A program made the translations under genes and the position numbers. Positions 17,076 through 57,272 of a stretch of 64,000 nt of DNA are shown here, in pieces. Position 1 is the first letter of the stretch. Every line of letters starts with the position of its first letter. The notes below the pieces were generated by a model. It saw only the letters and a program-made list of their open reading frames with translations, was not told the origin of the DNA and did not search any database. Origin of the DNA: Climacium dendroides (Eukaryota > Streptophyta > Bryopsida > Hypnales > Climaciaceae); NCBI GenBank assembly GCA_950106755.1, contig OX467088.1, positions 3,332,001 through 3,396,000 of the forward strand. The letters are read 5' to 3'.

Positions 17076-17089
17076 GTGGGCCCATAACC

Positions 17090-20933: not shown

Positions 20934-20947
20934 GGTTATGGGCCCAC
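20934..20947 (+). other. Primer-binding site of Copia-B2
   Basis: GGTTATGGGCCCAC directly after the LTR, complementary to the initiator tRNA-Met anticodon arm, as in the Copia-A elements. Confidence 0.75.
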
Positions 20948-34789: not shown

Positions 34790-35065
34790 TATTGAGATTA
34801 CAAAGTAATGAATGAAGAAAGGCTTTACTTAGATGGTAGGAAGATACCAAGCCACATGAGTGGGCTGAACTTAAGCTAGAAGCCTTTCACTAGTTATCCA
34901 CAAACCATGTGGGATAACTACCTTTCATGGGCTGCCTTTGACTAGGAGCAATACCCAATGGATTCTAAGACTAACCTAGTGTCTAATGCTACACCTAGGG
35001 CTGAATGTACATGGTCAACACTAATATGTACATGTTAGTCAACAATATGTACTTGATCTTCAACA
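34790..35065 (-). repeat. Copia-A LTR (3' LTR of RT-deleted element 1)
   Basis: 276 bp, preceded by GGATT. Confidence 0.93.
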
Positions 35066-35306
35066 CTCCCACTTTGAGAGTGGTCAAAGGCTCCATGGCC
35101 CATCTTCTCAATCAAGTTTTTGGTGTTGTGGCTTCCCAAGGGCCTTGGTGAACACATCAGCCACCATAGCTTGGGTACGCACATACTTGAGCTCAATCAC
35201 CACTTCCTCTACTATGATGGACTGCCACTTTGAACTCCATGAAATGGTATCCATTCCAAGCATAAACATGTAGCCGCTGGTGGATCTCCTGTCCACAAAT
35301 GTCAAA
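35066..35306 (-). pseudogene. Residual RNase H-side tail of RT-deleted element 1
   Basis: Three in-order scraps (MYAMVATRADLTF, DRRSTSGYMFMLG, VVIELKYVRTQAMVADVF) left after the shared deletions. They lie in a different frame from the gag-integrase ORF, adjacent to the polypurine tract CTCAAAGTGGGAG. Confidence 0.85.
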
Positions 35307-37937
35307 TCAGCCCTTGTTGCCACCATGGCATACATCAACCAACCCATCGCTACTTTGTACCTCCTCTTGCATGGCCAACTCCCACTTGCTTGAATCTCTC
35401 CAACACATCACCTTTCGAAGTGAAGATGGATCTCCAACGAAAGCCACATTGGCTTGTTCTTCATGTTGTGGGGGGAGAATGTGATTCAGCCACCAATCTC
35501 CAAGGGGCTTGCGGGTCCTAGTTGGATAGCGTGGCTCCTCCATGGGCTGATCTTGCTCTTCCAAGGGCTGGTCTTGTTCTCCCAAGGGCTGATCATGCTC
35601 TTGCTCCCTTGGTGAAGTGCTTGGAGAAGGAATTGCTGATCTCTTCACTTGGGGTGTGGCGACCTTCTTCTTAGGCTCCACCAAGTCTTCATCTTCCCCT
35701 CCTTGCTCTTCATCTTCATCTCCTTCATCTTCTATGTGCACTCTTGGAGTTGTGCCCACCTTTTGGGCTGGTCCTCCACTTCTCCCACTTGGGCTCATCT
35801 CCAAGAACTTGGGATCAGCACCTTCATCCTCCATGAACGTCACATCTCGACACTTGATGATGGCCTTGTTCTCCACACACATCAGCCTATAAGCCTTGGT
35901 TCCCTCACAATAACCAAGGAAAAGACACTTGATGCCCTTGGCATCCAACTTGGTCCTCTTGGCACTTGGAACCAAGGCATAGGCAATGCACCCAAAGGTG
36001 CGCATGTGAGATACATGGGGCCTAATCCCACTCCAAGCTTCTTGGGGTGTCATGCTTGTCAAGGCTCGGGTGGGGCACCGATTCCTTGTATAAACCGCTG
36101 TAGACACCGCCTCCCCCCAAAGCTCAAACTTCAGCCCTTGGGCATGAATCATGGACCTTGCCATCTCCACAATGGTGCGATTTGCACGCTCCGCTACGCC
36201 GTTTTGTTGAGGAGTGTAAGGTGCTGATGTATGGTGCTCAATGCCATGGGCCTTCAAGTACTCCTCAAAGGCCTTGGACACATACTCCCCACCATTATCC
36301 GACCGCAGCACCTTCACCTTGCAATCAGATTGGGCCTCCACAATGGCCTTCCAAGTCTCAAAACGCCCAAACACCTCACTCTTGCACTTCAGCATGTACA
36401 CCCACACCTTGCGGGAGAAATCATCAATGAATGTCAAAAAGTACCTTGCTCCTCCTATGGTGGTGGTCTTCATTGGTCCGCACACATCGGAATGCACAAG
36501 CTCCAATGGCTTGCTGGCCCTTGTTGCCCCATCCTTGGGGAAGGGCTGCCTTGCTTGTTTGCCCTCAATGCACCCCTTGCACACCCTAGAACTGCAATCA
36601 TGCTTGCAAGAAGAGAGGTTCAGCCCCTTCACAATGTGTTGGAGGCTCTTCACACTCTTCACATTCAAGTGCCCAAGCCTCCTATGCCAAAGCTCCACAA
36701 GGTCTCCATGAGCTGATCCTTGGGCAACACATGCCAAAGAAGAGCCATTCACCTTGGTGAAGTGGAGGCGGTACAAATTGCCCTCACGAGGGGCTGATGC
36801 AATCAAAACTCCACTTGGTGCCCTCACAACACACCCCACCATGTTGAAATGCACTTTCAAACCTCCCAAACACAATTTGCTCACTGAAAGCAAGTTGGCA
36901 TGCAACTTGGGCACATGGAGTGCCTCATGGATCTGAATCCTTTTGGTCTCTCCCTTCACTTGCACCTCCACAAGGATCAGCCCCATGCCAAGGGCCTCCA
37001 CCACACCATTGTCTCCCAAATAAATCTTCTTCCCCGAAATGGGCTGATAGGTGTGGAAGGCATCACGATGGCTGGTCATATGTTGAGTGGCCCCCGAATC
37101 CACTATCCAAGTAAACATGTTGGCCTTCTCCCCTCCTCCATGAGTGGCAAAGGCGAAGTCCTCCTCCTCCTCCTCTTTGGAGGCTTGGTGTGCACTCTCC
37201 TTGTCTTTGCCTTGGCTGATCTTGCAATGCCTAGCAATGTGGCCTGATTTGCCACACTTGAAGCATGTCCTTGTCTCCTTCAAGGCCTTGGTGTTGCCTT
37301 CTTTGCCATGTCTTGAAACAAGGGCTGATCCATCTCCTTGGGCCTCATTCTCCTTGCGCTTGGTCACCTCATGCATCAAGCGGGCCGTCACAAACTCCAT
37401 GGTCAGCTCCTTCATAGGCCTTGTCTCCAATGCGGTGATGAGGAACTCATAAGACGGTGGCAAGCTCTCCAACAAGGTCATCACCACATCTCCATCTGTC
37501 ACGGGCGCCTCCAAGCAAGCCAACTCATCCGCAAGAGCCTTGATCTTGTTGACATGATCCAACAAGTCATCCTCCTCTTGCATCTTGCTAGTGAAGAACT
37601 TGCGCCGGAGAAAAAGGATGTTGGAGAGGCTCTTGGTCTCATGGATGTTGCAAAGGGTGGTCCATGCTTGGGCTGGTCCCTTGCAATGGCGAATGTGTGC
37701 AATTTGCCGATCCACAAGGTTGATGGCAATGAGAGCAAAGGCCTTCTTCTCCTTCCTCTCAAATGCCTTCTTGGTCTTTGGATTAGCATCTTCACTTGGA
37801 GGCTCCTCACTCCCATCCACCACCTCCCACAAGTCCTTCTCCGCAAGAATCATCTCCATCTTGAACTTCCACATGCCAAAGTTCTCCCCATTGAACTTGT
37901 CAATGATGCACACGCCTTCTCCTCCACTTGAAGCCAT
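35307..37937 (-). CDS. gag-int: Gag-protease-integrase polyprotein of an RT-deleted copia, 876 aa, intact
   Basis: Open from ATG 37937 to a TGA just past the deletion point. Carries gag core (IDKFNGENFGMWKFKMEMIL), CCHC knuckle CFKCGKSGHIARHC about residues 224-237, protease WIVDSGATQHMTS about 274, GAG-pre-integrase LWHRRLGHL, and integrase with HSDVCGP about 484, RSDNGGEY about 546 and NGVAERANRT about 581. An acidic linker with 'PLGEQDQPLEEQDQP' repeats follows, then an 18-residue out-of-frame tail (VQSSDGLVDVCHGGNKG). A normal copia pol is about 450 residues longer. Conserved catalytic residues suggest the element still supplies its own particle, protease and integrase and borrows only RT/RNase H. 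Confidence 0.93.
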   Translation of the reverse strand: MASSGGEGVCIIDKFNGENFGMWKFKMEMILAEKDLWEVVDGSEEPPSEDANPKTKKAFERKEKKAFALIAINLVDRQIAHIRHCKGPAQAWTTLCNIHETKSLSNILFLRRKFFTSKMQEEDDLLDHVNKIKALADELACLEAPVTDGDVVMTLLESLPPSYEFLITALETRPMKELTMEFVTARLMHEVTKRKENEAQGDGSALVSRHGKEGNTKALKETRTCFKCGKSGHIARHCKISQGKDKESAHQASKEEEEEDFAFATHGGGEKANMFTWIVDSGATQHMTSHRDAFHTYQPISGKKIYLGDNGVVEALGMGLILVEVQVKGETKRIQIHEALHVPKLHANLLSVSKLCLGGLKVHFNMVGCVVRAPSGVLIASAPREGNLYRLHFTKVNGSSLACVAQGSAHGDLVELWHRRLGHLNVKSVKSLQHIVKGLNLSSCKHDCSSRVCKGCIEGKQARQPFPKDGATRASKPLELVHSDVCGPMKTTTIGGARYFLTFIDDFSRKVWVYMLKCKSEVFGRFETWKAIVEAQSDCKVKVLRSDNGGEYVSKAFEEYLKAHGIEHHTSAPYTPQQNGVAERANRTIVEMARSMIHAQGLKFELWGEAVSTAVYTRNRCPTRALTSMTPQEAWSGIRPHVSHMRTFGCIAYALVPSAKRTKLDAKGIKCLFLGYCEGTKAYRLMCVENKAIIKCRDVTFMEDEGADPKFLEMSPSGRSGGPAQKVGTTPRVHIEDEGDEDEEQGGEDEDLVEPKKKVATPQVKRSAIPSPSTSPREQEHDQPLGEQDQPLEEQDQPMEEPRYPTRTRKPLGDWWLNHILPPQHEEQANVAFVGDPSSLRKVMCWRDSSKWELAMQEEVQSSDGLVDVCHGGNKG

Positions 37938-39202
37938 GATGAAGCACCTCCCACTTGTTGGCAGCCCCCCAAGTGTCTCCAAGAGTTGACAAACTCAATT
38001 CAGCCTCCAAACAATCCCTTGGAAGCCAATTGGGCTGAAATGGCACCAATCAGCCCTCCCAAGCACCTCCAAAGATCCTTCACACCCTATGGACAACAAA
38101 AAGAAAACACTCCTCCAAGTGCATCACCTCCTCTCCACACCAATTCAGACCCTAATGAAGCTCAAAGCCACCACATGGACTTCATGGGCTGGTTCTACTT
38201 GAAACCAACAAGAAAACTCACAATTCCCCACATAAATAGGGTACTCCACTCTCCAAGGTGCTCAAGACTTCCAATCAGCCCTAGATGGACAATTAGTACC
38301 TAAGGACAACAATAACCTCCAACATCCCTAGTTGGATTACCAAGCCACCTAGGAACTCCAATTGGCTCTCAATGGCTCACAAGCACACAAATCAGCCCTC
38401 TTGGTATCACAAAGTCCACCAAATGGCTCACTCACTCACAAGGGCCCAAATCAGCCCTCTTGGATTCACAAAGTCCACCAAATGGCCTCACTCACTCTCA
38501 AGGGCACAAATCAGCCCTCTTGGGTTCACAATGTCCACCAATTTGCCTCTCTCACTCACTAGGGCACAAATCAGCCCTCTTGGGTTCACAATGACCACCA
38601 ATTTGCCTCTCTCTCTCACAAGGGTACCAATCAGCCCTCAACGGATGGCAAACACCTCAAGAAATCCAATGATGCTTCCAAGACTTACAATGGACTCTCA
38701 CTAGATTGCAATAAGCACAATCACACTCAACTATGCACCAAAATGCAAAATCAGCCACAAAGGACTCCCACTAAAGTGCAATTGGCACAATCCTACACCA
38801 CAATGCACCCAAGTGCACAATCAATTAAAAGACTCTCACTAAAGTGCAATTGGCACAATCTCACTCCACAATGCACCCAAGTGCACAATTAGCCTCAAAT
38901 GGCTCTCAATGCACACTTCTAAGTGCAAACTCAAACTAGGAGCATGCAACCAGCCCTTACTAGGTCTGATTACTACCATAAGCAATGTCTCCACCAAAAT
39001 GTACTCAAAACCACACAAACCAGCCAATGACAAAAGAAACAAAACTCCTTTTTTTTTTTAAAATGCACTCCAAGTTTTTGACAATTTACTCACACCATAT
39101 GGTTTGTAGGTGAAACACTACACACAAGGCTGATTGCTCCTCCAAGCTCCAAGATCTCCTCCAAATGATTTGAACTTCTCCTTCAAACGCAACTCCAAGT
39201 GC
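37938..39202 (-). other. Leader of RT-deleted element 1
   Basis: Untranslated leader with the 60-bp array (38385-38640) and a second array of about 70 bp (38740-38900, 'caattggcacaatc...actaaagtg', about two copies). The second array has about three copies at 46130-46330. Confidence 0.75.
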
Positions 39203-39216
39203 GTGGGCCCATAACC
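39203..39216 (-). other. Primer-binding site of RT-deleted element 1
   Basis: On the minus strand GGTTATGGGCCCAC directly follows the 5' LTR. It is the half initiator-tRNA type. Confidence 0.75.
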
Positions 39217-39492
39217 TATTGAGATTACAAAGTAATGAATGAAGAAAGGCTTTACTTAGATGGTAGGAAGATACCAAGCCACATGAGTGGGCTGAACTTA
39301 AGCTAGAAGCCTTTCACTAGTTATCCACAAACCATGTGGGATAACTACCTTTCATGGGCTGCCTTTGACTATGAGCAATACCCAATGGATTCTAAGACTA
39401 ACCTAGTGTCTAATGCTACACCTAGGGCTGAATGTACATGGTCAACACTAATATGTACATGTTAGTCAACAATATGTACTTGATCTTCAACA
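39217..39492 (-). repeat. Copia-A LTR (5' LTR of RT-deleted element 1)
   Basis: 276 bp, followed by GGATT. Confidence 0.93.
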
Positions 39493-40775
39493 GGATTTGC
39501 ATCCCTCTATATTGAATCGCTTCAACACGCCCTCAATGTACTTGCCTTGGCTCATGGTGATGGTGCGGGCCGCCCGGTTCCTTGTAAACTCCACTCCAAG
39601 ACAATAGTGTAACTCACCAAGGTCGCTCATGTCATATTGACTCTTCAACATGGCCATCACTTCCACCATTTTGCTCATGGTGTTGGTCATGATGATCGAG
39701 TCATCTACATACACAATCACAATCACCAAATACGTACTTGTTTGCTTGATGTAGAGAGAGTGGTCCGCATGACTCCTTTTGTAGCCCTCCCTTGCAAACA
39801 ATGCATCCACATCCATGTACCATGCTCTTCCGGATTGCCTCAACCCATAGATGGCCTTCTTGAGCTTGTACTTGAGGTACTCACGACCCTCTTGGATAAA
39901 GCCCTTGGGTTGGTCCATGTAGATCACTTCTTCAAGCCCAAGATTGAGAAACGTTGTATGACATCCATTTGGTGCATTTCCAAATCCATGGAAGCCCCAA
40001 TGCTCGCCATGCATCGAATGGTGCAAAACTTGGCCACGGGAGCAAAAGTCTCATTGAAGTCCACTCCTTCCACTTGTGAATATCCCTTTGCCACCAACCT
40101 TGCCTTGTAACGCACAATGTTGCGGGATGCATCTCTCTTGGTGCAAAACACCCACTTGCATCCCACACTTGTACGATCACGAGGAAGAGGAGAAAGTTCC
40201 CATGTACCTTTGGCCATAAGTGAGGCATACTCCTCTTTCATAGCTTGCTCCCACTTGCTTGCATCCGAGCTCTTCATGGCTTCACCCATGTTGCGTGGAT
40301 CTCCTACACACGCCACATTGGCATGCTCCACTTGTTCTTGAGGGAAGATGTGGTTCATCCACCATTCTCCAAGCGGCCTCCTCTCCCTCGTAGGATATCT
40401 TGGCTCCTTGGAGGCATCGTCCTCCTCGTCTTCACTTGGTGGAGAGCTCGGAGATGGACAACTCTTCTCCTTAGGTGTCGGTGGTGTCTCATCATGGTCC
40501 TCATCATCCTTGGGCATGCTTGGAGATTTGTTCACTTCAATCTTTGGTTCCTCCTTGCTCCCACTTGGACACATCTCCAAAGCATTGGTGTCCCCTTGCT
40601 TGTCTTCTAAAATGAGACATCGCAACTCTTGATGATCTTCTTGGTCTCTGAACACATGAGTCTATATGCCTTGGAGCCCTCACAATATCCCATAAGCAAA
40701 CACTTGATGCCCTTGACATCAAGCTTGGAGCGCTTGGGACTCAAATCCAAGGCATATGCAACGCATCCAAAGATG
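39493..40775 (-). pseudogene. pol: Copia-B3 RT fragment
   Basis: Minus strand, from FIEGCKS down through YVDD-type RT (VIVIVYVDDSIIM, with Leu to Ser after YVDD), the linker and KLDVKGIKCLLMGY. Frameshifts occur near 39950 (TTTCTCAATC region) and near 40608 (lost base in 'tctaaaatgag'). Confidence 0.85.
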
Positions 40776-41051
40776 TGTTGAAGATCAAGTACATATTGTT
40801 GACTAACATGTACATATTAGTGTTGACCATTTACATTTAGCCCTAGGTGTAGCATTAGACAGTAGGTTAGTCTTAGAGTCCATTGGGTATTGCTCCTAGT
40901 CAAAGGCAGCCCATGAAAGGTAGTTATCCCACATGGTTTGTGGATAACTAGTGAAAGGCTTCTAGCTTAAGTTCAGCCCACTCATGTGGCTTGGTATCCT
41001 CCTACCATCTAAGTAAAGCCTTTCTTCATTCATTACTTTGTAATCTCAATA
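40776..41051 (+). mobile_element. Solo Copia-A LTR, TSD AGATG
   Basis: 276-bp LTR alone inside Copia-B3 pol, flanked by AGATG at 40771-40775 and 41052-41056. The typical outcome of recombination between the two LTRs of one insertion. Confidence 0.92.
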
Positions 41052-41950
41052 AGATGCACATGTGTGCCCAATGTTGGGCCTCTTTCCACTCCATGCTTCT
41101 TGTGGTGTCATCGAAGCTACTGCACTTGTAGGGCACCTATTGTTGAAGAGCATGTACATATAGGTTATGGGCCCATAACCTAGGGCTGAATGTACATAGT
41201 CTACACTAGGTTATGGGCCCACCATGCCGCATTTGATATTGCCTCCGCCCAAAGATCATACGTGAGGCCTTGGGCATGGACCATGGACCGAGCCATCTCC
41301 ATTAGTGTGCGATTAGCACGCTTTGCCACACCGTTTTGTTGCGGAGTGTAAGGGGTTGAAGTTTGGTGTTGAATACCGTGCTCTCTCATAAAAGCCTCAA
41401 AGGCCTTGAACATGTATTCCCCACCATTGTCCGACCTCAACACCTTCACCTTATGCCCCGACATCCATGCTTTGAACTTCTCAAACACCTCACTCTTGCA
41501 TTTGAGCATGAACACCCATATCTTCCTTGAAAAATCGTCAATGAAGGTCAAAAATACCTTGCACCACCCATAGAGGTGGTCTTCATGGGGCCACACACAT
41601 TAGAGTGCACAATCTCTAACACCTTGGTTGCTCTTGTCCCTCCATCGCTTGGAAATGGTTGCCTTGCTTGCTGCCTTCAATGCAAGCTTTACATTTCAAA
41701 TCGCAAGAGCCCTTCTGCACTTGCATGCCTCCCACCATGTTTTGAAGGCTCTTCACACTCTTCTCATTGAGGTGGCCCAATCTCTTGTGCCATAGCTTCA
41801 ATGGGTGTTGGTGGAGTGTACCTTGCGCCAAACATGCCTTGCTTGTGCCATTCACGCCGTTGAACCTCAAATGATACAAATTGCCCTATTTTGATGTTGT
41901 CACGATCATCCTTCCATTGGGTGCACCCAAAACGCACCCCTTGTTGTTGA
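41052..41950 (-). pseudogene. pol: Copia-B3 integrase fragment
   Basis: Minus-strand GAG-pre-integrase and integrase (LWHKRLGHLNEKS, RSDNGGEYM, QQNGVAKRANRT), with several small deletions (near 41464, 41555 and 41670) and the 82-bp filler at 41141. It is interrupted at GTTGA by the next element. Confidence 0.85.
41141..41222. other. 82-bp scrambled LTR/primer-site filler
   Basis: Replaces about 7 bp of Copia-B3. Made of a Copia-C LTR start (TGTTGAAGAGCATGTACATA), an 18-bp perfect palindrome GGTTATGGGCCCATAACC (41163-41180) that is the primer-binding site joined to its own inverse, an inverted LTR piece (TAGGGCTGAATGTACATAG...), and a second GGTTATGGGCCC (41209-41220). Confidence 0.7.
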
Positions 41951-43532
41951 TGTCAAAAGCGAAGAAAATAGATTTTATTTATTTCAAATAGAATTTGAAG
42001 TAAGAAATCCATTCATAGTACATTTTCTGTATTCTATGGGGTAGAAATAGATAAATTACTAGAGTTATGGATTAACAACTGTAGGGGCTCTTAATTGCGG
42101 TAAAATGGTTAAGGAGGAAATTTGCACTTTCCGTCCTAACCGGAACCCGGAGCCTGGAGAGTTGTCCAAAAAGTATTTTCAAAGACTTTTTGTAGTATCA
42201 GAACTAGATCCAGAATCAATCCGGAACTATTCCGAACTAACGGATCCGGAATCCGGAAATGTCTAGGATACAGATGAAGATCCGGATAGGATCCGAAATC
42301 CGGAAAATGATTTGGAACAGAAGCCTCATACTAGGCGGCAACGAAGACGACTCCGGCTACAAGCGGAAGGGACGAATTCGGGAAAGGGCGGATCCAGAAT
42401 AGGCAGATCTGGAATGGACAATTCCGGAATGGATCTGGAATTTTAGGGATTTTTGAAAATTATAGGATCTGGTGCTAGCCTTTCCGGATATCCCGGGGTG
42501 TTCATTGATTGGTTGCCTAGATTTCCGGGTTTCCTTTTCAGGCTTTTAGGAGTTGACTTTGGGTTTTTGTGTTACTATTTTAAAGGCAGGCAAGTTAGTT
42601 GTCTGTCATTCCATCCTACTCCATTCCGTTTTAGTGCTTTCACGTATGTATTACAATTTTCTTTTCTTAATCTAAGTCAGCCAGGATATCTCTAGCTGCA
42701 CTTTTGCTTAGACAAGGTCTTTTGGTTGAGTGTATGCATGTGTGTGTAACCTTGTACTAGAGAAAGAGAAGGGAGGGAGAGGAGGAATCCGGATCTTGGG
42801 CTATGGATCTCTTGGTGTTGAGCTGAGTGGGAGGGATGCGGGTTGAGTAAGGGAGTGTAAGTGTGACGTGCTTTTAAATTGCTGGAACGGCAATCCGGGT
42901 AAGAAGGTAGAGGGCCCTGCGAGTCTAGAACCAAGAGGGTTTTGTGCGGAGATAAGCAACCGCCAAAGGAAAGGAACTCCCGCTACTTCGGAAAGTCTAC
43001 CAACCTCCCCCTTGGTACATTGTCTTCCCCTTGAGATTCTATTCCTTTGGGTCTATGAGTTTGGATCCGGTGTGTAGTAAAGAGAGGTGTGAGAATTTCT
43101 TTGTGTGACCTGATTCCGGATCGACCAATCCGGAAACTATGAAAGAATACTCCTCCCTCCTCCTACAGCGGTGTTGTCTTGGGTGTGGTTTAGTAGATTT
43201 AGAGTACAGAGAGGATAATTGCACAAGTGGTGAGTCCCCACCCCTTTCTAGATCAAGGGCGGACCCTCATAGGGTAAAATAGAGGCAACAAAAACTAGTG
43301 ACGGAAGAGAGACGGAACTAAGATCCTAAAGTATCTGGATCCGGAACGGAATCCGGAATGTACTAAGTTTCCAGAATAAAGTAGGGAAGTAGGGGGATTA
43401 AGTGAATAGTCACAATCTAGATGCTTCTAACTCAATCGATATCTCACTAGAGGTTCCCTAGACCGATAATTCGTCTCATCTTGCAACCATTTGTCATTGT
43501 AAGGATACTTACGGCTAACTGCGCGTACGACA
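41951..43532. mobile_element. 1582-bp TGTC...GACA element, probable solo LTR, TSD GTTGA
   Basis: Starts TGTCAAAAGCG and ends CGCGTACGACA, flanked by GTTGA (41946-41950 and 43533-43537). Removing it restores Copia-B coding sequence exactly. It has no protein-coding content I recognise. It is rich in CCGGAA/TCCGGA words, with an upstream purine-rich stretch, a possible TATA-like TTTTAAAG near 42580 and long 3' sequence. TG...CA ends plus a 5-bp duplication fit a solo LTR, perhaps Ty3/gypsy given its length. A terminal fragment lies at 2838-2935. Orientation is not determined. Confidence 0.75.
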
Positions 43533-44618
43533 GTTGAATTGCACCTTCAAATCTTGTGACACCAACTTGCTCACCGAGAGCAAGTTGGCATGCAACTTGG
43601 GTACATGCAACGCATCTCAGATGCGAATGGTCCTCACTTGACCCTTCACCTCTACCTCCACCACGATGCACCCCATGCCAATTGCATCCACCATGTTGTT
43701 GTCCCCCAAGTACACCTTGCGATTGCTTATGGGAGCATAAGTGAGAAATGCTTGCCTATGTGAAGTCATGTGTTGTGTTGCGCCCGAGTCAACTATCCAT
43801 GTGAACATGTCGGTGTTGTCAAATCCTTCATTGGCTGCAAATGCAAAGTCCTCCTCTCCTTCCTTCACATTTGCCTTGTTTGCACTCTCCTTCTTGGGCA
43901 ACATACAAAACCGTGCAAGGTGGTCGGGCTTACCACAATTGTAGCATGTGCGTGTCTCCTTGCGTGGTTGTGAGCTCCTCCCTTGGCCATACCGCGAGTA
44001 GAGTACTGCCCCTCCTTCTTGGGGCTTAGTCTCCTTCCTCTTGGACACCTCATGCATCAACCTTGCCGTGATGAAGTCAAGAGTGAGCTCCTCCATAGGT
44101 CTTGTCTCCAACGCCGTGATGAGATACTCATAAGAAGGTGGCAAGCTATCAAGCAAAGTCATAACAATGTCACCATCCGTGACAAGAACCTCCAAACAAG
44201 CAAGTTGGTCTGCCAACGCCTTCACCTTGTTGATGTGGTCCAACATGTCCTCGTTCTCTTGCATCTTGCACGTGAAGAACTTACGACGAATGAAGAGCAT
44301 GTTGGACAAGCTCTTGGTCTCATGGATGTTGCAAAGCACCTTCCATGCTTCCGCGGGTCCCTTGCATGCTCGCACATGTGCAAGTTGCCTATCCACAAGA
44401 TTGCAAGCAATCATGGAGAAGGCCTTCTTGACCCTTCTCTCATAGGACTTCTTGACTTTCACATCCGCATCAGATGTGGGCACCTCCTCCGTGCCATCTA
44501 CAATCTCCCACAAGTCCTTTTTGGCCAAGATCATCTCCATTTTGAACTTCCATAGTCCAAAGTTGTCTCCATTGAACTTGTCGATGACCCTCACGCAATC
44601 TCCATCACTAGTGGCCAT
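43533..44618 (-). CDS. gag: Copia-B3 gag-protease, interrupted
   Basis: ATG at 44618. Open for more than 330 codons to the TGTC element: gag core, CCHC knuckle (CYNCGKPDHLARFC, Gly to Asp), protease VDSGATQHMTS and the start of the GAG-pre-integrase region. It would continue into 41950 and below without the insertion. Confidence 0.85.
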
Positions 44619-45523: not shown

Positions 45524-45799
45524 TGTTGAAGATCAAGTACATATTGTTGACTAACATGTACATATTAGTGTTGACCATGTACATTCAGCCCTAGGTGTAG
45601 CATTAGACACTAGGTTAGTCTTAGAGTCCATTGGGTATTGCTCATAGTCAAAGGCAACCCATGAAAGGTAGTTATCCCACATGGTTTGTGGATAACTAGT
45701 GAAAGGCTTCTAGCTTAAGTTCAACCCACTCATGGAGCTTGGTATCTTCCTACCATCTAAGTAAAGCCTTTCTTCATTCATTACTTTGTAATCTCAATA
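45524..45799 (+). repeat. Copia-A LTR (A6)
   Basis: 276 bp, the 5' LTR of the gag-pol that follows, with the primer-binding site at 45800. Confidence 0.9.
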
Positions 45800-47215
45800 G
45801 GTTATGGGCCCATGCACTTGGAGTTGCGTTTGAAGGAGAAGTTCAAATCATTTGGAGGAGATCTTGGAGCTTGGAGGAGCAATCAGCCTTGTGTGTATTT
45901 TTCACCTACAAACCATATGGTGTGAGTAATTTGTCAAAAACTTCGAGTGCATTTTAAAAAAAAAAGGAGTTTTGTTTCTTTTGTCATTGGCTGGTTTGTG
46001 TGGATTTGAGTACATTTTGGTGGAGACATTGCTTATGGTATTAATCAGACCTAGTAAGGGCTGGTTGCATGCTCCTAGTTTGAGTTTGCACTTAGAAGTG
46101 TGCATTGAGAGCCATTTGAGGCTAAATGTGCACTTGGGTGCATTGTGGAGTGAGATTGTGCCAATTGCACTTTAGTGAGAGTCTTTTAAGGCTAATTGTG
46201 CACTTGGGTGCATTGTGGTGTAAGATTGTGCCAATTGCACTTTAGTGAGAGTCTTTTAAGGCTGATTGTGCACTTGGGTGTATTGTGGTGTAAGATTGTG
46301 CCAATTGCACTTTAGTGGGAGTCCTTTGTGGCTGATTTTGCATTTTGGTGCATAGTTGAGTGTGATTGTGCTTATTGCAATCTAGTGAGAGTCCATTGTC
46401 AGTCTTGGAAGCATCATTGGGTTGCTTGAGGTGTTTGCCATCCGTTGAGGGCTGATTGGTACCCTTGTAAGAGAGAGAGGCAAATTGGTGGACATTGTGA
46501 ACCCAAGAGGGTTGATTTGTGCCCTTGAGAGTGAGTGAGGCAAATTGGTGGACATTGTAAACCCAAGAGGGCTGATTTGTGCCCTTGTGAGTGAGTGAGG
46601 CCATTTATTGGATTTTGTGACCCTAAGAGGGCTGATTTGTGCCCTTGTGAGTGAGTGAGGCCATTTGGTGGACTTTGTGAATCCAAGAGGGCTGATTTGG
46701 GCCCTTGTGAGTGAGTGAGCCATTTGGTGGACTTTGTGAGCCCAAGAGGGCTGATTTGTGTGCTTGTAAGCCATTGAGAGCCAATTGGAGTTCCTAGGTG
46801 GCTTGGTGATCCAACTAGGGATGTTGGAGGTTACTGTTGTCCTTAGGTACTAATTGTGAGTAGTAGCTTCCATCTAGGGCTGATTGGAAGTCTTGAGCAC
46901 CTTGGAGAGTGGAGTACCCTATTTGTGTGGGGAATTGTGAGTTTTCTTATTGATTTCAAGTAGAACCAGCCCATGAAGTCCATGTGGTGGCTTTGAGCTT
47001 CATTAGGGTCTGAATTGGTGTGGAGAGGAGGTGATGCACTTGGAGGAGTGTTTTGGTCCTCCATAGAGTGTGAAGGATCTTTGGAGGTGCTTGGGAGGGC
47101 TGATTGGTGCCATTTCAGCCCAATTGGCTTCCAAGGGATTGTTTGGAGGCTGAATTGAGTTTGTCAACTCTTGGAGACACTTGGGGGGCTGCCAATAAGT
47201 GGGAGGTGCTTCATC
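45800..47215 (+). other. Copia-A leader
   Basis: Leader with an array of about 70 bp (46130-46330, about three copies) and the 60-bp array (46447-46760). No gene. Confidence 0.75.
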
Positions 47216-49659
47216 ATGGCATCAAGTGGAGGAGAAGGCGTGTGCATCATTGACAAGTTCAATGGGGAGAACTTTGGCATGTGGAAGTTCAAGATGGAGA
47301 TGATTCTTGCGCAAAAGGACTTATGGGAGGTGGTGGATGGGAGTGAGGAGCCTCCAAGTGAAGATGCTGATCCAAAGACCAAGAAGGCATTTGAGAGGAA
47401 GGAGAAGAAGGCCTTTGCTCTCATTGCCATCAACCTTGTGGACCGGCAAATTGCACACATTCGCCATTACAAGGGACCAGCCCAAGCATGGACCACCCTT
47501 TGCAACATCCATGAGACCAAGAGCCTCTCCAACATCCTTTTTCTTCGGCGCAAGTTCTTCACTAGCAGGATGCAAGAGGAGGATGACTTGTTGGATCATG
47601 TCAACAAGATCAAGGCTCTTGCGGATGAGTTGGCTTGCTTGGAGGCGCCCGTGACAGATGGAGATGTGGTGATGACCTTGTTGGAGAGCCTGCCACCGTC
47701 GTATGAGTTCCTCATCACCGCATTGGAGACAAGGCCTATGAAGGAGTTGACCATGGAGTTTGTGACGGCCCGCTTGATGCATGAGGTGACCAAGCGCAAC
47801 GACAATGAGGCCCAAGGAGATGGATCAGCCCTTGTTTCAAGACATGGCAAAGAAGGCAACACCAAGGTCTTCAAGGAGACAAGGACATGCTTCAAGTGTG
47901 GCAAATCAGGCCACATTGCTAGGCATTGCAAGATCAGCCAAGGCAAAGACAAGGAGAGTGCACACCAAGCCTCCAAAGAGGAGGAGGAGGAGGACTTTGC
48001 CTTTGCCACTCATGGAGGAGGGGAGAAGGCCAATATGTTTACTTGGATAGTGGATTCGGGGGCCACTCAACATATGACCAGCCATCGTGATGCCTTCCAC
48101 ACCTATCAGCCCATTTCGGGGAAGAAGATTTATTTGGGAGACAATGGTGTGGTGGAGGCCCTTGGCATGGGGCTGATCCTTGTGGAGGTGCAAGTGAAGG
48201 GGGAGACCAAAAGGATTCAGATCCATGAGGCACTCCATGTGCCCAAGTTGCATGCCAACTTGCTTTTCGTGAGCAAATTGTGCTTGGGAGGTTTGAAAGT
48301 GCATTTCAACATGGTGGGGTGTGTTGTGAGGGCACCAAGTGGAGTTTTGATTGCATGAGCCCCTCGTGAGGGCAATTTGTACCGCCTCCACTTCACCAAG
48401 GTGAATGGCTCTTCTTTGGCATGTGTTGCCCAAGGATCAGCTCATGGAGACCTTGTGGAGCTTTGGCATAGGAGGCTTGGGCACTTGAATGTGAAGAGCA
48501 TGAAGAGCCTCCAACACATTGTGAAGGGGCTGAACCTCTCTTCTTGCAAGCATGATTAGAGTTCTAGGGTGTGCAAGGGGTGCATTGAGGGCAAACAAGC
48601 AAGGCAGCCCTTCCCTAAGGATGGGGCAACAAGGGCCAGCAAGCCATTGGAGCTTGTGCATTCCGATGTGTGGGGACCAATGAAGACCACCACCATAGGA
48701 GGAGCAAGGTATTTTTTGACATTTATTGATGATTTCTCTCGCAAGGTGTGGGTGTATATGCTGAAGTGCAAGAGTGAGGTGTTTGGGCGTTTTGAGACTT
48801 GGAAGGCCCTTGTGGAGGCCCAATCTAATTGCAAGGTGAAGGTGCTGCGCTCGGATAATGGTGGGGAGTATGTGTCCAAGGCCTTTGAGGAGTACTTGAA
48901 GGCCCATGGCATTGAGCACCATACATCAGCACCTTACACTCCTCAACAAAATGGCGTAGCGGAGTGTGCAAATCGCACCATTGTGGAGATGGCAAGGTCC
49001 ATGATTCATGCCCAAGGGCTGAAGTTTGAACTTTGGGGTGAGGTAGTGTCTACAGCGGTTTATACAAGGAATCGGTGCCCCACCCAAGCCTTGACAAGCA
49101 TGACACCCCAAGAAGCTTGGAGTGGGATTAGGCCCCATGTATCTCACATGCGCACCTTTGGGTGCATTGCCTATGCCTTGGTTCCAAGTGCCAAGAGGAC
49201 CAAGTTGGATGCCAAGGGCATCAAGTGCCTTTTCCTTGGTTATTGTGAGGGAACCAAGGCTTATAGGCTGATGTGTGTGGAGAACAAGGCCATCATCAAG
49301 TGTCAAGATGTGACGTTCATGGAGGATGAAGGTGCTGATCCCAAGTTCTTGGAGATGAGCCCAAGTGGGAGAAGTGGAGGACCAGCCCAAAAGGTGGGCA
49401 CAACTCCAAGAGTGCACATAGAAGATGAAGGAGATGAAGATGAAGAGCAAGGAGGGGAAGATGAAGACTTGGTGGAGCCTAAGAAGAAGGTGGCCACACC
49501 TCAAGTGAAGAGATCAGCAATTCCTTCTCCAAGCACTTCACCAAGGGAGCAAGAGCATGATCAGCCCTTGGAAGAACAAGACCAGCCCTCGGGAGAGCAA
49601 GATCAGCCCATGGAGGAGCCACGCTATCCAACTAGGACCCGCAAGCCCCTTGGAGATTG
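47216..49659 (+). pseudogene. gag-int: Copia-A gag-protease-integrase, two nonsense codons, 3' truncated
   Basis: ATG 47216. Gag core, CCHC knuckle and protease are open to a TGA at 48356-48358 (TCA to TGA). In-frame coding then resumes to a TAG at 48557-48559 (Trp codon), followed by integrase (HSDVWGP, DNGGEY, NGVAECANRT). The HSDVCGP Cys is Trp, and the Arg of AERANRT is Cys. It ends at KPLGD where a minus-strand Copia-C LTR begins, before the RT deletion point, so its RT status is unknown. The TGA and the Arg-to-Cys change are shared with 54124-56601. Confidence 0.88.
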
Positions 49660-49913
49660 TATTGAGATTACAAAGTAATGAATGAAGAAAGGCTTTACTT
49701 AGATGGTAGGAGGATTCCAAACCCCATGAGTGGGTTGAACATAAGGTAGAAGCCTTTCATAGTTATCCACATACATCATGGGATAACTAACCTCAATGGG
49801 CTGCCTTTGACTACAAGCAATACCCAAGAGACTCTAAGTCTAACTAAGAGTCTAATGCTACTCCTAGGGCTGAATGTACATAGTCTACACTAATATGTAC
49901 ATGTTCTTCAACA
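49660..49913 (-). repeat. Copia-C LTR (C5), lone
   Basis: 254 bp, full length, minus strand, between Copia-A pol (left) and Copia-B gag (right). Flanks GATTG and CAAGG do not match, so this is not a clean insertion. Confidence 0.88.
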
Positions 49914-52496
49914 CAAGGGACCCGCGGAAGCATGGAAGGTGCTTTGCAACATCCATGAGACCAAGAGCTTGTCCTAAGCCCCAAGAAGGAGGGTCAGCAC
50001 TCTATTCGCGGTATGGCCAAGGGGGGAGCTCACAACCACGTAAGGAGACACGCACATGCTACAATTGTGGTAAGCTCGGCCACCTTGCACGATTTTGTAG
50101 GTTGCCCAAGAAGGAGAGTGCAAACAAGGCAAGTGTGAAGGAAGTGGAGGAAGACTTTGCATTTGCGGCCAATGAGGGATTTGACAACACCGACATGTTC
50201 ATATGGATTGTTGACTCGGGCACAACACAACACATGACTTCACATAGGCAAGCATTTCTCACTTATGCTCCCATAAGCAATCGCAAGGTGTACTTGGGGG
50301 ACAACAACATGGTGGATGCAATTGGCATAGGGTGCATCGTGGTGGAGGTAGAGGTGAAGGGTCAAGTGAGGACCATTCGCATTCAAGATGCGTTGCATGT
50401 GCCCAAGTTGCATGCCAACTTGCTCTCGGTGAGCAAGTTGGTGTCACAAGATTTGAAGGTGCAATTCAACAACAAGGGGTGCGTTTTGGATGCACCCAAT
50501 GGAGAGATGATCGTGACAACATCAAAAGAGGACAATTTGTATCATTTGAGGTTCAAGAGCGTGAATGGCATAAGCAAGGCATGTTTCGCGCAAGGTGCAC
50601 TCCACCAACACTCATTGGAGCTATGGCACAAGATATTGCGCCACCTCAATGAGAAGAGTGTGAAGAGCCTTCAAAGCATGGTGGGAGGCATGCAAGTGGA
50701 GAAGGGCTCTTGCGATTTGAAGTGTGAAGCTTGCATTGAAAGCAAGCAAGCGAGGCAACCATTTCCAAGCGATGGAGCGATGGTATTGGAGATTGTGCAC
50801 TCCGATGTGTGCGGTCCCATGAAGACCACCTGTATGGGTGGTGCAAGGTATTTTTTGACCTTCATTGATGATTTTTCAAGGAAGATATGGGTGTTCATGC
50901 TCAAGTGCAAGAATGAGGTGTTTGAGAAGTTCAAAGCATGTAAGGCACTTGTGGAACATGAGTCAGGGCATAAGGTGAAGGTATTGAGGTCGGACAATGG
51001 TGGGGAATACATGTCCAAGGCCTTTGAGGCTTTTATGAGAGAGCATGGTATTCAACACCAAACTTCAGCCCCTTACACTCCGCAACAAAACAGTGTGGCG
51101 GAGCGTGCTAATCACACACTAATGGAGATGGCTCGGTCCATAGTCCATGCCCAAGGCCTCACATATGATCTTTGGGCGGAGGCGGTATCAAATGCGGCAT
51201 ACACACGCAATAGGTGCCCTACAAATGCAGTAGCTTTGATGACGCCACAAGAAGTATGGAGTGGAAAGAGGCCCAACATTGGGCACATGCGCATCTTTGG
51301 ATGCGTTGCATATGCCTTGGATTTGAGTCCCAAGCGCTCCAAGCTTGATGTCAAGGGCATCAAGTGTTTGCTTATGGGATATTGTGAGGGCTCCAAGGCG
51401 TATAGACTCATGTGTTCAGAGACCAAGAAGATCATCAAGAGTTGCGATGTCTCATTTTAGAAGACAAGGAAGGGGACACCAATGCTTTGGAGATGTGTCC
51501 AAGTGGGAGCAAGGAGGAACCAAAGATTGAAGTGAACAAATCTCCAAGCATGCCCAAGGATGATGAGGACCATGATGAGACTCCACCGACACCTAAGGAG
51601 AAGAGTTGTCCATCTCCGAGCTCTCCACCAAGTGAAGACGAGGAGGACGATGCCTCCAAGGAGCCAAGATATCCTACGAGGGAGAGGAGGCCGCTTGGAG
51701 AATGGTGGAAGAACCACATCTTCCCTCAAGAACAAGTGGAGCATGCTAATGTGGCGTGTGTAGGAGATCCACGCAACATGGGTGAAGCCATGAAGAGCTT
51801 GGATGCAAGCAAGTGGGAGCAAGCTATGAAAGAGGAGTATGCCTCACTTATGGTCAAAGGTACATGGGAACTTTCTCCTCTTCCTCGTGATCGTACAAGT
51901 GTGGGATGTAAGTGGGTGTTTTGCACGAAGAGAGACGTATCCGGCAACATTGTGCATTATAAGGCAAGATTGTTAGTCAAGGGATATTTGCAAGTCAAAG
52001 GGGTGGACTTCAATGAGACTTTTGCTCCCGTGGCCAAGTTTTGCACCATTCGATGCATGGCGAGCATTGGGGCTTCCATGGATTTGGAAATGCACCAAAT
52101 GGATGTCATATAGTGCTTCTCAATCTTGGGCTTGAAGAAGTGATCTACATGGACCAACCCAAGGGCTTTATCCAAGAGGGTCATGAGTACCTCAAGTGCA
52201 AGCTCAAGAAGGCCATCTATGGGTTGAGGCAATCGGGAAGAGCATGGTACATGGATGTGGATGCATTGTTTGCAAGGGAGGGCTACAAAAGGAGTCATGC
52301 GGACCACTCTCTCTACATCAAGCAAACAAGTATGTATTTGGTGATTGTGATTGTGTATGTAGATGACTTGATCATCATGACCAACACCATGAGCAAGATG
52401 GTGGAAGTGAAGGCCATGTTGAAGAGTCAATATGACATGAGCGACCTTGGTGAGTTACACTATTGTCTAGGAGTGGAGTTTATAAGGAACCGAGCT
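49914..52496 (+). pseudogene. pol: Copia-B4 gag-pol fragment
   Basis: Begins with 62 bp of gag (EAWKVLCNIHETKSLS), jumps by internal deletion (49975) to the knuckle region, then protease, GAG-pre-integrase, integrase (HSDVCGP, DNGGEY, NSVAERANHT) and RT to YVDDLIIM. It has frameshifts near 51456 (lost G) and near 52110, and several altered residues (DSGT for DSGA in protease). It is interrupted in RT at GAGCT by the second RT-deleted element. Confidence 0.87.
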
Positions 52497-52772
52497 TGTT
52501 GAAGATCAAGTACATATTGTTGACTAACATGTATATATTAGTGTTGACCATGTACATTCAGCCCTAGGTGTAGCATTAGACACTAGGTTAGTCTTAGAGT
52601 CCATTGGGTATTGCTCCTAGTCAAAGGCAGCCCATGAAAGGTAGTTATTCCACATGGTTTGTGGATAACTAGTGAAAGGCTTCTAGCTTAAGTTCAGCCC
52701 ACTCATGTGGCTTTGTATCTTCCTACCATCTATGTAAAGCTTTTCTTCATTCATTACTTTGTAATCTCAATA
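52497..52772 (+). repeat. Copia-A LTR (5' LTR of RT-deleted element 2)
   Basis: 276 bp, preceded by GAGCT. Confidence 0.93.
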
Positions 52773-54123
52773 GGTTATGGGCCCACGCACTTGGAGTTGT
52801 GTTTGAAGGAGAAGTTCAAATCATTTGGAGGAGATCTTGGAGCTTGGAGGAGCAATCAGCCTTGTGTGTATTTTTCACCTACAAACCATATGGTGTGAGT
52901 AAATTGTCAAAAACTTCGAGTGTATTTTTAAAAAAAAAAGAAAGGAGTTTTGTTTCTTTTCTCATTGGCTGGTTTGTAAGTTTTTGAGTACATTTTGGTG
53001 GAGACATTGCTTACAGTGGTAATCAGACCTAGTAAGGGCTGGTTGCATGCTCCTAGTTTGAGTTTGCACTTAGAAGTGTGCATTGAGAGCCATTTGAGGC
53101 TAATTGTGCACTTGGGTGCATTGTGGAGTGAGATTGTGCCAATTGCACTTTAGTGAGAGTCTTTTAAGGCTGATTGTGCACTTGAGTGCATTGTGGTGTA
53201 AGATTGTGCCAATTGTACTTTAGTGGAAGTCCTTTGTGGCTGATTTTGCATTTTGGTGCATAGTTGAGTGTGATTGTGCTTATTGCAATCTAGTGAGAGT
53301 CCATTGTCAGTCTTGGAAGCATCATTGGGTTGCATGAGGTGTTTGCCATCCGTTGAGGGCTGATTGGTACCCTTGTAAGAGAGAGAGGCAAATTGGTGGT
53401 CATTGTGAACCCAAGAGGGCTGATTTGTGCCCTTGAGAGTGAGTGAGGCAAATTGGTGGACATTGTGAATCCAAGAGGGCTGATTTGTGCCCTTGTGAGT
53501 GAGTGAGGCCATTTATTGGATTTTGTGAACCTAAGAGGGCTGATTTGTGCCCTTGTGAGTGAGTGAGGCCATTTGGTGGACTTTGTGAATCCAAGAGGGC
53601 TGATTTGGGCCCTTGTGAGTGAGTGAGCCATTTGGTGGACTTTGTGAGCCCAAGAGGGCTGATTTGTGTGCTTGTGAGCCATTGAGAGCCAATTGGAGTT
53701 CTTAGGTGGCTTGGTGATCCAACTAGGGATGTTGGAGGTTATTGTTGTCCTTAGGTACTAATTGTGAGTAGTAGCTTCCATCTAGGGCTGATTGGAAGTC
53801 TTGAGCACCTTGGAGAGTGGAGTACCCTATTTGTGTGGGGAATTGTGAGTTTTCTTATTGGTTTCAAGTAGAACCAGCCCATGAAGTCCATGTGGTGGCT
53901 TTGAGCTTCATTAGGGTCTGAATTGGTGTGGAGAGGAGGTGATGCACTTGGAGGAGTGTTTTGGTCGTCTATAGAGTGTGAAGGATCTTTGGAGGTGCTT
54001 GGGAGGGCTGATTGGTGCCATTTCAGCCCAATTGGCTTCCAAGGGATTGTTTGGAGGCTGAATTGAGTTTGTCAACTCTAGGAGACACTTGGGGGGCTGC
54101 CAATAAGTGGGAGGTGCTCCATC
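52773..54123 (+). other. Primer-binding site and leader of RT-deleted element 2
   Basis: GGTTATGGGCCCAC at 52773, then leader. The array of about 70 bp has about two copies (53090-53260) and the 60-bp array lies at 53355-53670. No gene. Confidence 0.75.
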
Positions 54124-56601
54124 ATGGCATCAAGTGGAGGAGAAGGCGTGCGCATCATTGACAAGTTCAATGGGGAGAACTTTGGCATGTGGAAGTTCAA
54201 GATGGAGATGATTCTTGCGGAGAAGGACTTGTGGGAGGTGGTGGATGGGAGTGAGGAGCCTCCAAGTGAAGATGCTGATCCAAAGACCAAGAAGGCGTTT
54301 GAGAGGAAGGAGAAGAAGGCCTTTGCTCTCATTGCCATCAACCTTGTGGACCGGCAAATTGCACACATTCGCCATTGCAAGGGACCAGCCCAAGCATGGA
54401 CCACCCTTTGCAACATCCATGAGACCAAGAGCCTCTCCAACATCCTTTTTCTCCGGCGCAAGTTCTTCACTAGCGAGATGCAAGAGGAGGATGACTTGTT
54501 GGATCATGTCAACAAGATCAAGGCCCTTGCGGATGAGTTGGCTTGTTTGGAGGCACTCGTGACCAATGGAGATGTGGTGATGACCTTGTTGGAGAGCCTG
54601 CCACCGTCTTATGAGTTCCTCATCACCGCATTGGAGACAAGGCCTATGAAGGAGCTGACCATGGAGTTTGTGATGGCCCGCTTGATGCATGAGGTGACCA
54701 AGCGCAAGGAGAATGAGGCCCAAGGGGAGGGATCAGCCCTTGTTTCAAGACATGGCAAAGAAGGCAACACCAAGGCCTTGAAGGAGACAAGGACATGCTT
54801 CAAGTGTGGCAAATCAGGCCACATTGCTAGGCATTGCAAGATCAGCCAAGGCAAAGACAAGGAGAGTGCACACCAAGCCTCCAAAGACGAGGAGGAGGAG
54901 GATTTTGCCTTTGCCACTCATGGAGGAGGGGAGAAGGCCATTATGTTTACTTGGATAGTGGATTCGGGGGCCACTCAACATATGACCAGCCATCGTGATG
55001 CCTTCCACACCTATCAGCCCATTTCGGGGAAGAAGATTTATTTGGGAGACAATGGTGTGGTGGAGGCCCTTGGCATGGGGCTGATCCTTGTGGAGGTGCA
55101 AGTGAAGGGGGAGACCAAAAGGATTCAGATCCATGAGGCACTCCATGTGCCCAAGTTGCATGCCAACTTGCTTTTCGTGAGCAAATTGTGCTTGGGAGGT
55201 TTGAAAGTGCATTTCAACATGGTGGGGTGTGTTGTGAGGGCACCAAGTGGAGTTTTGATTGCATGAGCCCCTCGTGAGGGCAATTTGTACCGCCTCCACT
55301 TCACCAAGGTGAATGGCTCTTCTTTGGCATGTGTTGCCCAAGGATCAGCTCATGGAGACCTTGTGGAGCTTTGGCATAGGAGGCTTGGGCACTTGAATGT
55401 GAAGAGCATGAAAAGCCTCCAACACATTGTGAAGGGGCTGAATCTCTCTTCTTGCAAGCATGATTGGAGTTCTAGGGTGTGCAAGGGGTGCATTGAGGGC
55501 AAACAAGCAAGGCAGCCCTTCCCTAAGGATGGGGCAACAAGGGCCAGCAAGCCATTGGAGCTTGTGCATTCCGATGTGTGCGGACCAATGAAGACCACCA
55601 CCATAGGAGGAGCAAGGTATTTTTTGACATTTATTGATGATTTCTCCCGCAAGGTGTGGGTGTACATGCTGAAGTGCAAGAGTGAGGTGTTTGGGCGTTT
55701 TGAGACTTGGAAGGCTCTTGTGGAGGCCCAATCTGATTGCAAGGTGAAGGTGCTGCGCTCGGATAATGGTGGGGAGTATGTGTCCAAGGCCTTTGAGGAG
55801 TACTTGAAGGCCCATGGCATTGAGCACCATACATCAGCACCTTACACTCCTCAACAAAATGGCGTAGCGGAGTGTGCAAATCGCACCATTGTGGAGATGG
55901 CAAGGTCCATGATTCATGCCCAAGGGCTGAAGTTTGAACTTTGGGGTGAGGCGGTGTCTACAGCGGTTTATACAAGGAACCGGTGCCCCACCCGAGCCTT
56001 GACAAGCATGACACCCCAAGAAGCTTGGAGTGGGATTAGGCCCCATGTATCTCACATGCGCACCTTTGGGTGCATTGCCTATGCCTTGGTTCCAAGTGCC
56101 AAGAGGACCAAGTTGGATGCCAAGGGCATCAAGTGCCTTTTCCTTGGTTATTGTGAGGGAACCAAGGCTTATAGGCTGATGTGTGTGGAGAACAAGGCCA
56201 TCATCAAGTGTCAAGATGTGACGTTCATGGAGGATGAAGGTGCTGATCCCAAGTTCTTGGAGATGAGCCCAAGTGGGAGAAGTGGAGGACTAGCCCAAAA
56301 GGTGGGCACAACTCCAAGAGTGCACATAGAAGATGAAGGAGATGATGAAGAAGAGCAAGGAGGGGAAGATGAAGACTTGGTGGAGCCCAAGAAGAAGGTG
56401 GCCACACCCCAAGTGAAGAGATCAGCAATTCCTTCTCCAAGCACTTCACCAAGGGAGCAAGAGCATGATCAACCCTTGGGAGAACAAGACCAGCCCTTGG
56501 AAGAGCAAGATCAGCCCATGGAGGAGCCTCGTTATCCCACAAGGACCCGCAAGCCCCTTGGAGATTGGTGGCTGAATCACATTCTCCCCCCCACAACATG
56601 A
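54124..56601 (+). pseudogene. gag-int: Gag-protease-integrase of RT-deleted element 2, one UGA and a frameshift
   Basis: ATG 54124. Gag core, CCHC knuckle and protease (WIVDSGATQHMTS) are open to a TGA at 55264-55266, just after the protease region. The same frame then continues through GAG-pre-integrase and integrase (HSDVCGP, RSDNGGEY, NGVAECANRT). One extra C in a C-run near 56588 shifts the frame at the end of the linker (stop at 56601). The TGA matches the one at 48356, so it was copied rather than arising twice. Confidence 0.9.
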
Positions 56602-56996
56602 AGAACAAGCCAATGTGGCTTTCGTTGGAGATCCATCTTCACTTCGAAAGGTGATGTGTTGGAGAGATTCAAGCAAGTGGGAGTTGGCCATGCAAGAGGA
56701 GGTACAAGGTAGCGATGGGTTGGTTGATGTATGCCATGGTGGCAACAAGGGCTGATTTGACATTTTTGGATAGGAGATCCACTAGCGACTACATGTTTAT
56801 GCTTGGAATGGATACCATTTCATAGAGTTCAAAGTGGCAGCCCACCATAGTAGAGGAAGTGGTGATTGAGCTCAAGTATGTGCCTACCCAAGCTATGGTG
56901 GCTGATGTGTTCACCAAGGCCCTTGGGAAGCCACAACACCAAAAACTTGATTGAGAAGATGGGCCATGGAGCCTTTGACCACTCTCAAAGTGGGAG
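56602..56996 (+). pseudogene. Deleted pol tail of RT-deleted element 2
   Basis: The same three RNase H-side scraps and junctions as in the other deleted copies, with one more stop (56823, tggag to tagag), ending in CTCAAAGTGGGAG beside the LTR. Confidence 0.85.
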
Positions 56997-57272
56997 TGTT
57001 GAAGATCAAGTACATATTGTTGACTAACATGTACATATTAGTGTTGACCATGTACATTCAGCCCTAGGTGTAGCATTAGACACTAGGTTAGTCTTAGAGT
57101 CCATTGGGTATTGCTCCTAGTCAAAGGCAGCCCATGAAAGGTAGTTATCCCACATGGTTTGTGGATAACTAGTGAAAGGCTTCTAGCTTAAGTTCAGCCC
57201 ACTCATGTGGCTTTGTATCTTCCTACCATCTATGTAAAGCTTTTCTTCATTCATTACTTTGTAATCTCAATA
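56997..57272 (+). repeat. Copia-A LTR (3' LTR of RT-deleted element 2)
   Basis: 276 bp, followed by GAGCT. Confidence 0.93.

Follow-up and report, generated by a model that had tools for sequence, protein, structure and literature searches.

Can a long terminal repeat (LTR) retrotransposon that has discarded its reverse transcriptase (RT) still transpose, and which proteins does such an element go on supplying for itself? The question is raised by a 64,000-nucleotide stretch of the Climacium dendroides genome (assembly GCA_950106755.1, contig OX467088.1, positions 3,332,001–3,396,000 of the forward strand; hereafter, the window, whose own numbering is used throughout), for which a preliminary description had proposed a copia lineage without RT that kept gag, protease and integrase and remained mobile. 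For this lineage (hereafter, X), we establish here the RT-region deletions, two independent insertions, one intact gag-protease-integrase (gag-PR-INT) frame, fewer nonsynonymous differences between two RT-less copies than neutrality predicts, and sequence exchange with an RT-bearing lineage. X is probably a non-autonomous Ty1/copia lineage that takes RT and RNase H (RH) from relatives in trans, with its own Gag-PR-INT still under selection.

Self-comparison showed that two related Ty1/copia families are densely nested in the window: A/X, with LTRs of 254 or 276 bp, and B, with LTRs of about 304 bp. The structures that bear on the insertion history of X are as follows (TSD, target site duplication).

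34790..39492 (− strand): X1, complete RT-deleted copia element; LTRs 34790-35065 and 39217-39492; TSD GGATT on both sides
52497..57272 (+ strand): X2, complete RT-deleted copia element; LTRs 52497-52772 and 56997-57272; TSD GAGCT on both sides
40776..41051 (+ strand): solo LTR of X type in a B-type copy; perfect TSD AGATG
12202..17392 (− strand): B1, element of the B family
20631..25968 (+ strand): B2, copia element of the family related to X; intact 1329-aa gag-PR-INT-RT-RH frame

The LTRs differ at 1/276 positions within X1 and 2/276 within X2, and at 4–7/276 between the two elements. Perfect 5-bp duplications were present in three of the ten structures whose flanks were inspected (X1, X2, and the solo LTR at 40776). 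The near-identical LTRs and the GGATT and GAGCT duplications reported earlier are confirmed. X1 and X2 each lie in a different B-type copy, and their insertion points are separated by about 75 bases in B coordinates. The empty site corresponding to X1 is found in B1 (13218-13337), where the joined flanks match over 120/120 bases at 96.7%, and that of X2 in three B-type copies (joined flanks 91.2%, 6 gaps). Because the host copy of X2 has the X1 site unoccupied (57285-57377) and the host copy of X1 has the X2 site unoccupied (39506-39630), X1 and X2 represent separate transpositions. The earlier proposal that the deleted form itself was mobilised is therefore upheld by two separate insertions with TSDs, empty sites, and near-identical LTRs.

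The deletions were defined by alignment to an RT-bearing relative, A (over 25969-29299), using the following copies and junctions.

25969..29553 (+ strand): A, RT-bearing relative, 5'-truncated relic; 3' LTR 29300-29553; RVT_2 match 1.7e-62 (27873-29366)
17393..19232 (+ strand): X4b, 3' part of an RT-deleted copy; X-type LTR 18933-19232; integrase mostly A-like, end mostly X-like
29554..30959 (+ strand): c29, 3' part of an RT-deleted copy; X-type internal sequence, A-type LTR 30706-30959
35212..35361 (− strand): X1 deletion junctions 1-3 (~35360, 35297/35296, 35213/35212), with two short RT/RH remnants between them, found by tblastn
56701..56850 (+ strand): X2 deletion junctions 1-3 (~56702, 56765/56766, 56849/56850), with remnants

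All four RT-deleted copies (X1, X2, X4b, and c29) share the same three deletions in the RT/RH region, of 813 bp (A positions 27810-28622), 168 bp (28686-28853), and 216 bp (28938-29153), in good agreement with the losses of about 0.8 kb, 170 bp, and 215 bp given before. The breakpoints agree in 4/4 copies, with one additional G at the first junction. These are the four copies named in the preliminary description, and its claim that they share the deletions stands; X1 and X2 are indeed complete, and the other two (17393-18932 and 29554-30705) are 3' pieces only. Its reference copy, 25969-29299, serves to define the deletions but is a 5'-truncated, damaged mosaic relic and not the ancestor. Of the A/X-family copies in the window, six extend as far as the third deletion; it is present in four and absent from two (25969-29299 and the fragment 33716-34113). 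A tblastn search with the RT-RH part of B recovered three RT/RH remnants of 21–38 residues (E <2e-5) in 4/4 deleted copies, other matches in these copies having E values of at least 0.2, whereas A was matched over 513 residues. The length of each deletion is divisible by three, and the remnants are crossed by one stretch of 83 codons that is open in X1, X4b, and c29 and interrupted by a stop in X2. Chance would make all three lengths divisible by three in 1 of 27 cases, so their divisibility hints, at most, that the frame was still being used as the deletions built up. Because of the extra G, the frame changes at junction 1 and the X1 protein ends 17 residues later.

Residues 790-891 of X1 matched five proteins in a protein database of uncertain plant-repeat coverage, and none was recognised with the X junction. 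P0003, P0004, P0145, and P0146 carry RVT_2; P0020 does not, yet its sequence does not stop at the junction point but goes on, in a shifted frame, through downstream sequence that is not deleted (the sequences of P0145 and P0146 were left out of the junction inspection). The best identity among relatives in the protein searches was 92% over 69%, and no relative turned up when viral and prokaryote contigs were scanned. Two more distant relatives, P0034 (857 aa, 11 member sequences) and P0018 (888 aa), have 53–57% identity and a likewise incomplete RT; P0034 ends in a stretch resembling the usual polyprotein end and has no integrase motif residues. These two are possibly independent RT losses, or gene-model artefacts.

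Could the shared deletions have arisen or spread without transposition of a deleted element? One deleted copy multiplied after integration by segmental duplication, unequal exchange, or misassembly is a highly improbable source of the four copies: rearranged and inverted copies do fill the window, as self-comparison showed, but X1 and X2 differ in TSD and in their insertion point in the B hosts. The reciprocal empty sites led us to reject segmental duplication, an origin that the preliminary description had named as fatal to its own proposal. An origin of X by reverse transcription of a spliced subgenomic RNA, with the deletions as removed introns, is the least probable of the explanations that we considered, close to negligible. 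Splicing is known in the copia element BARE1 (PMC3735527), and AG ends the second deleted stretch. GT-AG ends, however, occur in 0/3 deleted stretches at the aligned breakpoints (TATAAT...GTGCCT; CCGGTG...GATGAG; GCTCTT...GAACGA), and a GTGAGT near deletion 2 begins 3 bases inside the breakpoint. Splicing is unlikely because none of the three deletions has GT-AG ends, and it was rejected as their origin.

What X still encodes differs from copy to copy, as the frames of X1 and X2 and two further X-type copies illustrate.

35307..37937 (− strand): X1 open frame; 876 aa from the first Met (891-aa open reading frame, ORF); no RT domain
54124..56601 (+ strand): X2 gag-PR-INT frame, split by a stop (54124-55266 and 55285-56601), with a late 1-nt frameshift
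45524..49659 (+ strand): X3, X-type copy cut before junction 1, so that the RT region is not present to be judged
10009..12201 (+ strand): X4a, 5' LTR, leader, and part of gag of an X-type copy, interrupted by B1

In X1, gag, zinc knuckle, protease-like domain, gag-pre-integrase, integrase core, and SH3 follow one another in a single frame (Pfam PF14223, PF00098, PF22936, PF13976, PF00665, and PF25597), and RVT_2 (PF07727) is absent from this frame at E 0.001. The zinc knuckle, DSGA, and integrase D-35-E patterns were found in the translation. The retention of gag, protease, and integrase as one open frame thus holds for X1 only; X2 has an in-frame stop at codon 381 plus a late 1-nt insertion. 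X3 has the codon-381 stop in common with X2 and a further stop at codon 448, and an A-like piece (19233-20630) also has it, with three more stops. This stop (55264-55266 in X2), in the gap between protease and integrase, is therefore common to three copies of two backgrounds (X2, 45524-49659, and 19233-20630). That X2 and X3 nevertheless differ at few nonsynonymous positions in the integrase downstream is possibly due to gene conversion or readthrough.

To measure constraint, codon differences were compared with neutral simulations, whose transition share was set by the 35 transitions and 38 transversions seen in five LTR pairs; the codon counts leave out B1 and the B copy 49914-52494. Over 858 codons, the two RT-deleted elements X1 and X2 differ by 34.5 synonymous and 18.5 nonsynonymous changes, a nonsynonymous to synonymous rate ratio (dN/dS) of 0.14, whereas neutral simulations gave a mean of 40.3 nonsynonymous changes and 0/4000 as low as 18.5. 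Integrase alone has 4 nonsynonymous changes against 10.6 expected (P 0.0005), and the protease region has 8.5 synonymous and 4.5 nonsynonymous changes. Seven of the nine pairs tested fell below neutrality, with P values that take differences as independent and ignore gene conversion: besides X1-X2, these are X1-X3 (0.0000), X2-X3 (0.0000), X1-X4b (0.0003), and X1-c29 (0.0032), and, with the RT-bearing copy, X1-A (0.0000) and A-c30 (0.0003; c30, 30960-31755). Selection was not visible between A and 19233-20630 (14 nonsynonymous, 5 synonymous; P 0.52). By these counts, the X1-X2 coding differences show apparent purifying selection. Neutral decay of gag and integrase, which had been named beforehand as evidence against the proposal, does not describe this pair, although this conclusion is qualified by the visible exchange with copies that carry RT.

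This exchange is marked by a step in synonymous divergence between X1 and A. From 0.074 in protease and 0.057 in integrase, the synonymous rate (dS) goes up to 0.152 in the final stretch ahead of junction 1, and the remnants have an uncorrected proportion of synonymous differences (pS) of 0.248 (13.5/55 sites). Because amino-acid selection poorly explains such a step, A and X probably exchanged their 5' parts. LTRs of A differ from those of X1 and X2 at 29–31/254 positions. Other copies are mosaics: X4b is A-like at 8/11 informative sites in integrase and X-like at 18/21 downstream; the LTR of c29 differs at 6/254 positions from A and 33/254 from X1, and its internal 3' end is X-type; c30 falls between A and X in the protease region, with 8 X-like and 7 A-like sites. 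In the same region X3 has the X1/X2 state at 15/15 sites where X1 and X2 agree against A, so an A-like copy was not the recent source of this protease stretch. One alignment placed the short remnants wrongly, and only its pre-junction parts, 3' end, and LTR were used. The mosaics fit template switching between co-packaged RNAs in shared particles, and gene conversion within the cluster would give the same pattern.

X might then be a pure passenger that spreads by its cis signals only (LTR, primer binding site, packaging signal, and polypurine tract), with all proteins coming from RT-bearing relatives and its gag-PR-INT refreshed by recombination. We regard this as unlikely, while giving it some weight. 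The mosaic copies, together with X-A synonymous divergence that is lower in PR-INT than in the remnants, do demonstrate exchange; X was not recovered as one clade in PR-INT in small trees; and the codon-381 stop is common to X2, X3, and the A-like piece. Against a passenger, the protease stretch that X3 shows not to be recently A-derived still has the 8.5 to 4.5 excess of synonymous changes between X1 and X2, and beyond the shared stop X2 and X3 differ by 10 nonsynonymous changes where 18.2 are expected (P 0.0003), a deficit that exchange could also explain.

The preferred reading, selection on Gag-PR-INT in X itself, has its own difficulties. X1-X4a looks neutral in gag (12 nonsynonymous, 3 synonymous; P 0.71), and sequence selected in RT-bearing copies could have entered X by exchange, the main weakness of the selection argument, and so mimic selection within X. 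The stop between protease and integrase in X2 and X3 may mean that some mobile copies made no integrase from a simple frame. In FastTree trees with B2 as outgroup, which is distant and roots them weakly, X1 joins B2 outside X2, X3, and A for PR-INT (0.83), and X4b joins A for the 3' integrase (0.94). The selection argument is weakened by this failure of X to form one clade, and some of what separates X1 from X2 may be older than the deletion or stem from exchange. Nor does the 64-kb window contain an intact A-type autonomous element.

How would an element of this kind move? Supply of RT in trans would be the most reasonable route. X would be transcribed from its own LTR, its RNA packaged, presumably together with that of an RT-bearing relative, reverse transcribed by the RT/RH of an A-type or, less likely, a B-type relative (B2 is a possible donor), and the cDNA then integrated. 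Because Gag, protease, and integrase appear to be kept under selection, the X proteins probably act on X RNA or cDNA, through cis preference or in shared particles.

X1 and X2 have the LTR pair, primer binding site (PBS), polypurine tract (PPT), and 5-bp TSD of Ty1/copia elements, with a copia-type gag and the integrase upstream of the RT position; as X is without RT, the gag-PR-INT-RT order is judged from kin with RVT_2 (B2 and A) and from the remnants. In X1 the PBS is located as follows.

39203..39216 (− strand): X1 PBS, GGTTATGGGCCCAC, of apparent half-tRNA-Met type, adjoining the 5' LTR

These 14 bases open the internal part and are identical in X1, X2, X4, and both B elements (13/14 in X3; A is excluded, its own PBS being lost). 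Likewise, one and the same 11-base PPT, CAAAGTGGGAG, precedes the 3' LTR in X1, X2, X4b, c29, and A, in the fragment at 33716, and in both B elements. A 60-bp tandem repeat occupies the leader before gag in X-type copies (10727-11049, 38376-38639, 46447-46767, and 53355-53678).

The surroundings of X look like a moss centromere-type repeat cluster. GC content is 0.35–0.41 across the first 10 kb of the window and 0.44–0.52 in 23 of the 24 two-kb steps between 10001 and 58000 (0.398 in the remaining step). The B elements 12202-17392 (−) and 20631-25968 (+) are inverted relative to each other, 99.5–99.7% identical over two long stretches, and each adjoins almost the same point of an A/X-type copy; matching 5-bp duplications are absent at the ends used, which suggests inversion or exchange between them. 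Outer LTR ends abut internal sequence of the same family at 19232/19233, 29553/29554, 30959/30960, and 49659/49660, as mutual insertion of elements followed by one-side loss would leave. A 38-bp satellite-like array (about 15 copies) lies at 32461-33040. Among ten flank ORFs, four had a Pfam match (DUF4216, DUF4218, APH, and HEPN_Swt1, the last two below the curated cut-off). The DUF4216 and DUF4218 domains at 7817-9530 (−) are presumably remains of a CACTA-type transposon, and the ORF with the weak phosphotransferase/kinase-like (APH) match, 59544-60140 (−), has 22 relatives, the best-scoring at 75% identity. Searches of the window DNA for tRNAs and against Rfam returned no tRNA and no Rfam match.

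X provides a natural experiment on which proteins a retrotransposon has to supply for itself: RT can evidently be borrowed, whereas Gag, protease, and integrase appear to be retained. LARD and TRIM elements are non-autonomous plant LTR elements without coding capacity, from which X1 is set apart by its 891-aa frame. X shares with trans-mobilised non-autonomous LTR elements that the deleted form was inserted by transposition, as its TSDs and reciprocal empty sites show. Like X, TR-GAG is a plant non-autonomous LTR element with gag, and its transposition has been shown (PMC8704663); it keeps gag alone, whereas X1 also has the protease-like domain and integrase. The barley element BARE2 is likewise a copia parasite, whose RNA is packaged although it produces no Gag (PMC3735527); X has Gag and is without RT. 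No gag-PR-INT element without RT was described in the literature searched, which most subscription papers lay outside.

The closest published counterpart is tRLC5, a truncated copia form beside full-length relatives, with one cluster per chromosome (PMC7466625). Whether X simply is tRLC5 we judge an even call, and such identity is compatible with supply of RT in trans. Moss RLC5 is placed in Bryco and clusters at centromeres with its truncated form (PMC12885004, PMC9946827, PMC7466625), and the copia cluster around X is densely nested, with AT-rich sequence to its left. The half-tRNA-Met PBS of X is that of moss Bryco elements, although it also occurs in Osser and part of Gymco-II (PMC6317226). 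The likeness of X to tRLC5 is one of description. In Physcomitrium patens tRLC5 has 332 complete copies and is transcribed, with induction in young sporophytes, and three accessions are polymorphic for 43 tRLC5/RLC5 insertions (PMC7466625). Moss clusters with a truncated, mobile copia form have thus been published before, and the unusualness first claimed for X is weakened accordingly. The finding is real and informative, its mechanism is largely predictable, and its novelty is limited by tRLC5 and by counts from one window; what is added here is the exact domain loss, the proof of insertion, the sign of selection seen when copies without RT are compared, and the mosaic make-up of the copies. 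If X is tRLC5-like, a proposed moss centromere marker depends on a relative's enzyme, and centromere make-up would be tied to a parasite-host pair of transposons.

The best functional parallel is mouse IAP I-delta-1, which works similarly, although it is an endogenous retrovirus in which a deletion yields a gag-pol fusion, whereas X is a copia element that loses RT/RH and keeps gag-PR-INT. By this analogy, X may tentatively be seen, though we lean against it, as a plant copia counterpart of I-delta-1: cis-acting, selected Gag, protease, and integrase, particles shared with RT-bearing kin, sequence swapped with them in the course of reverse transcription, and a role as a main coloniser of a moss centromere cluster.

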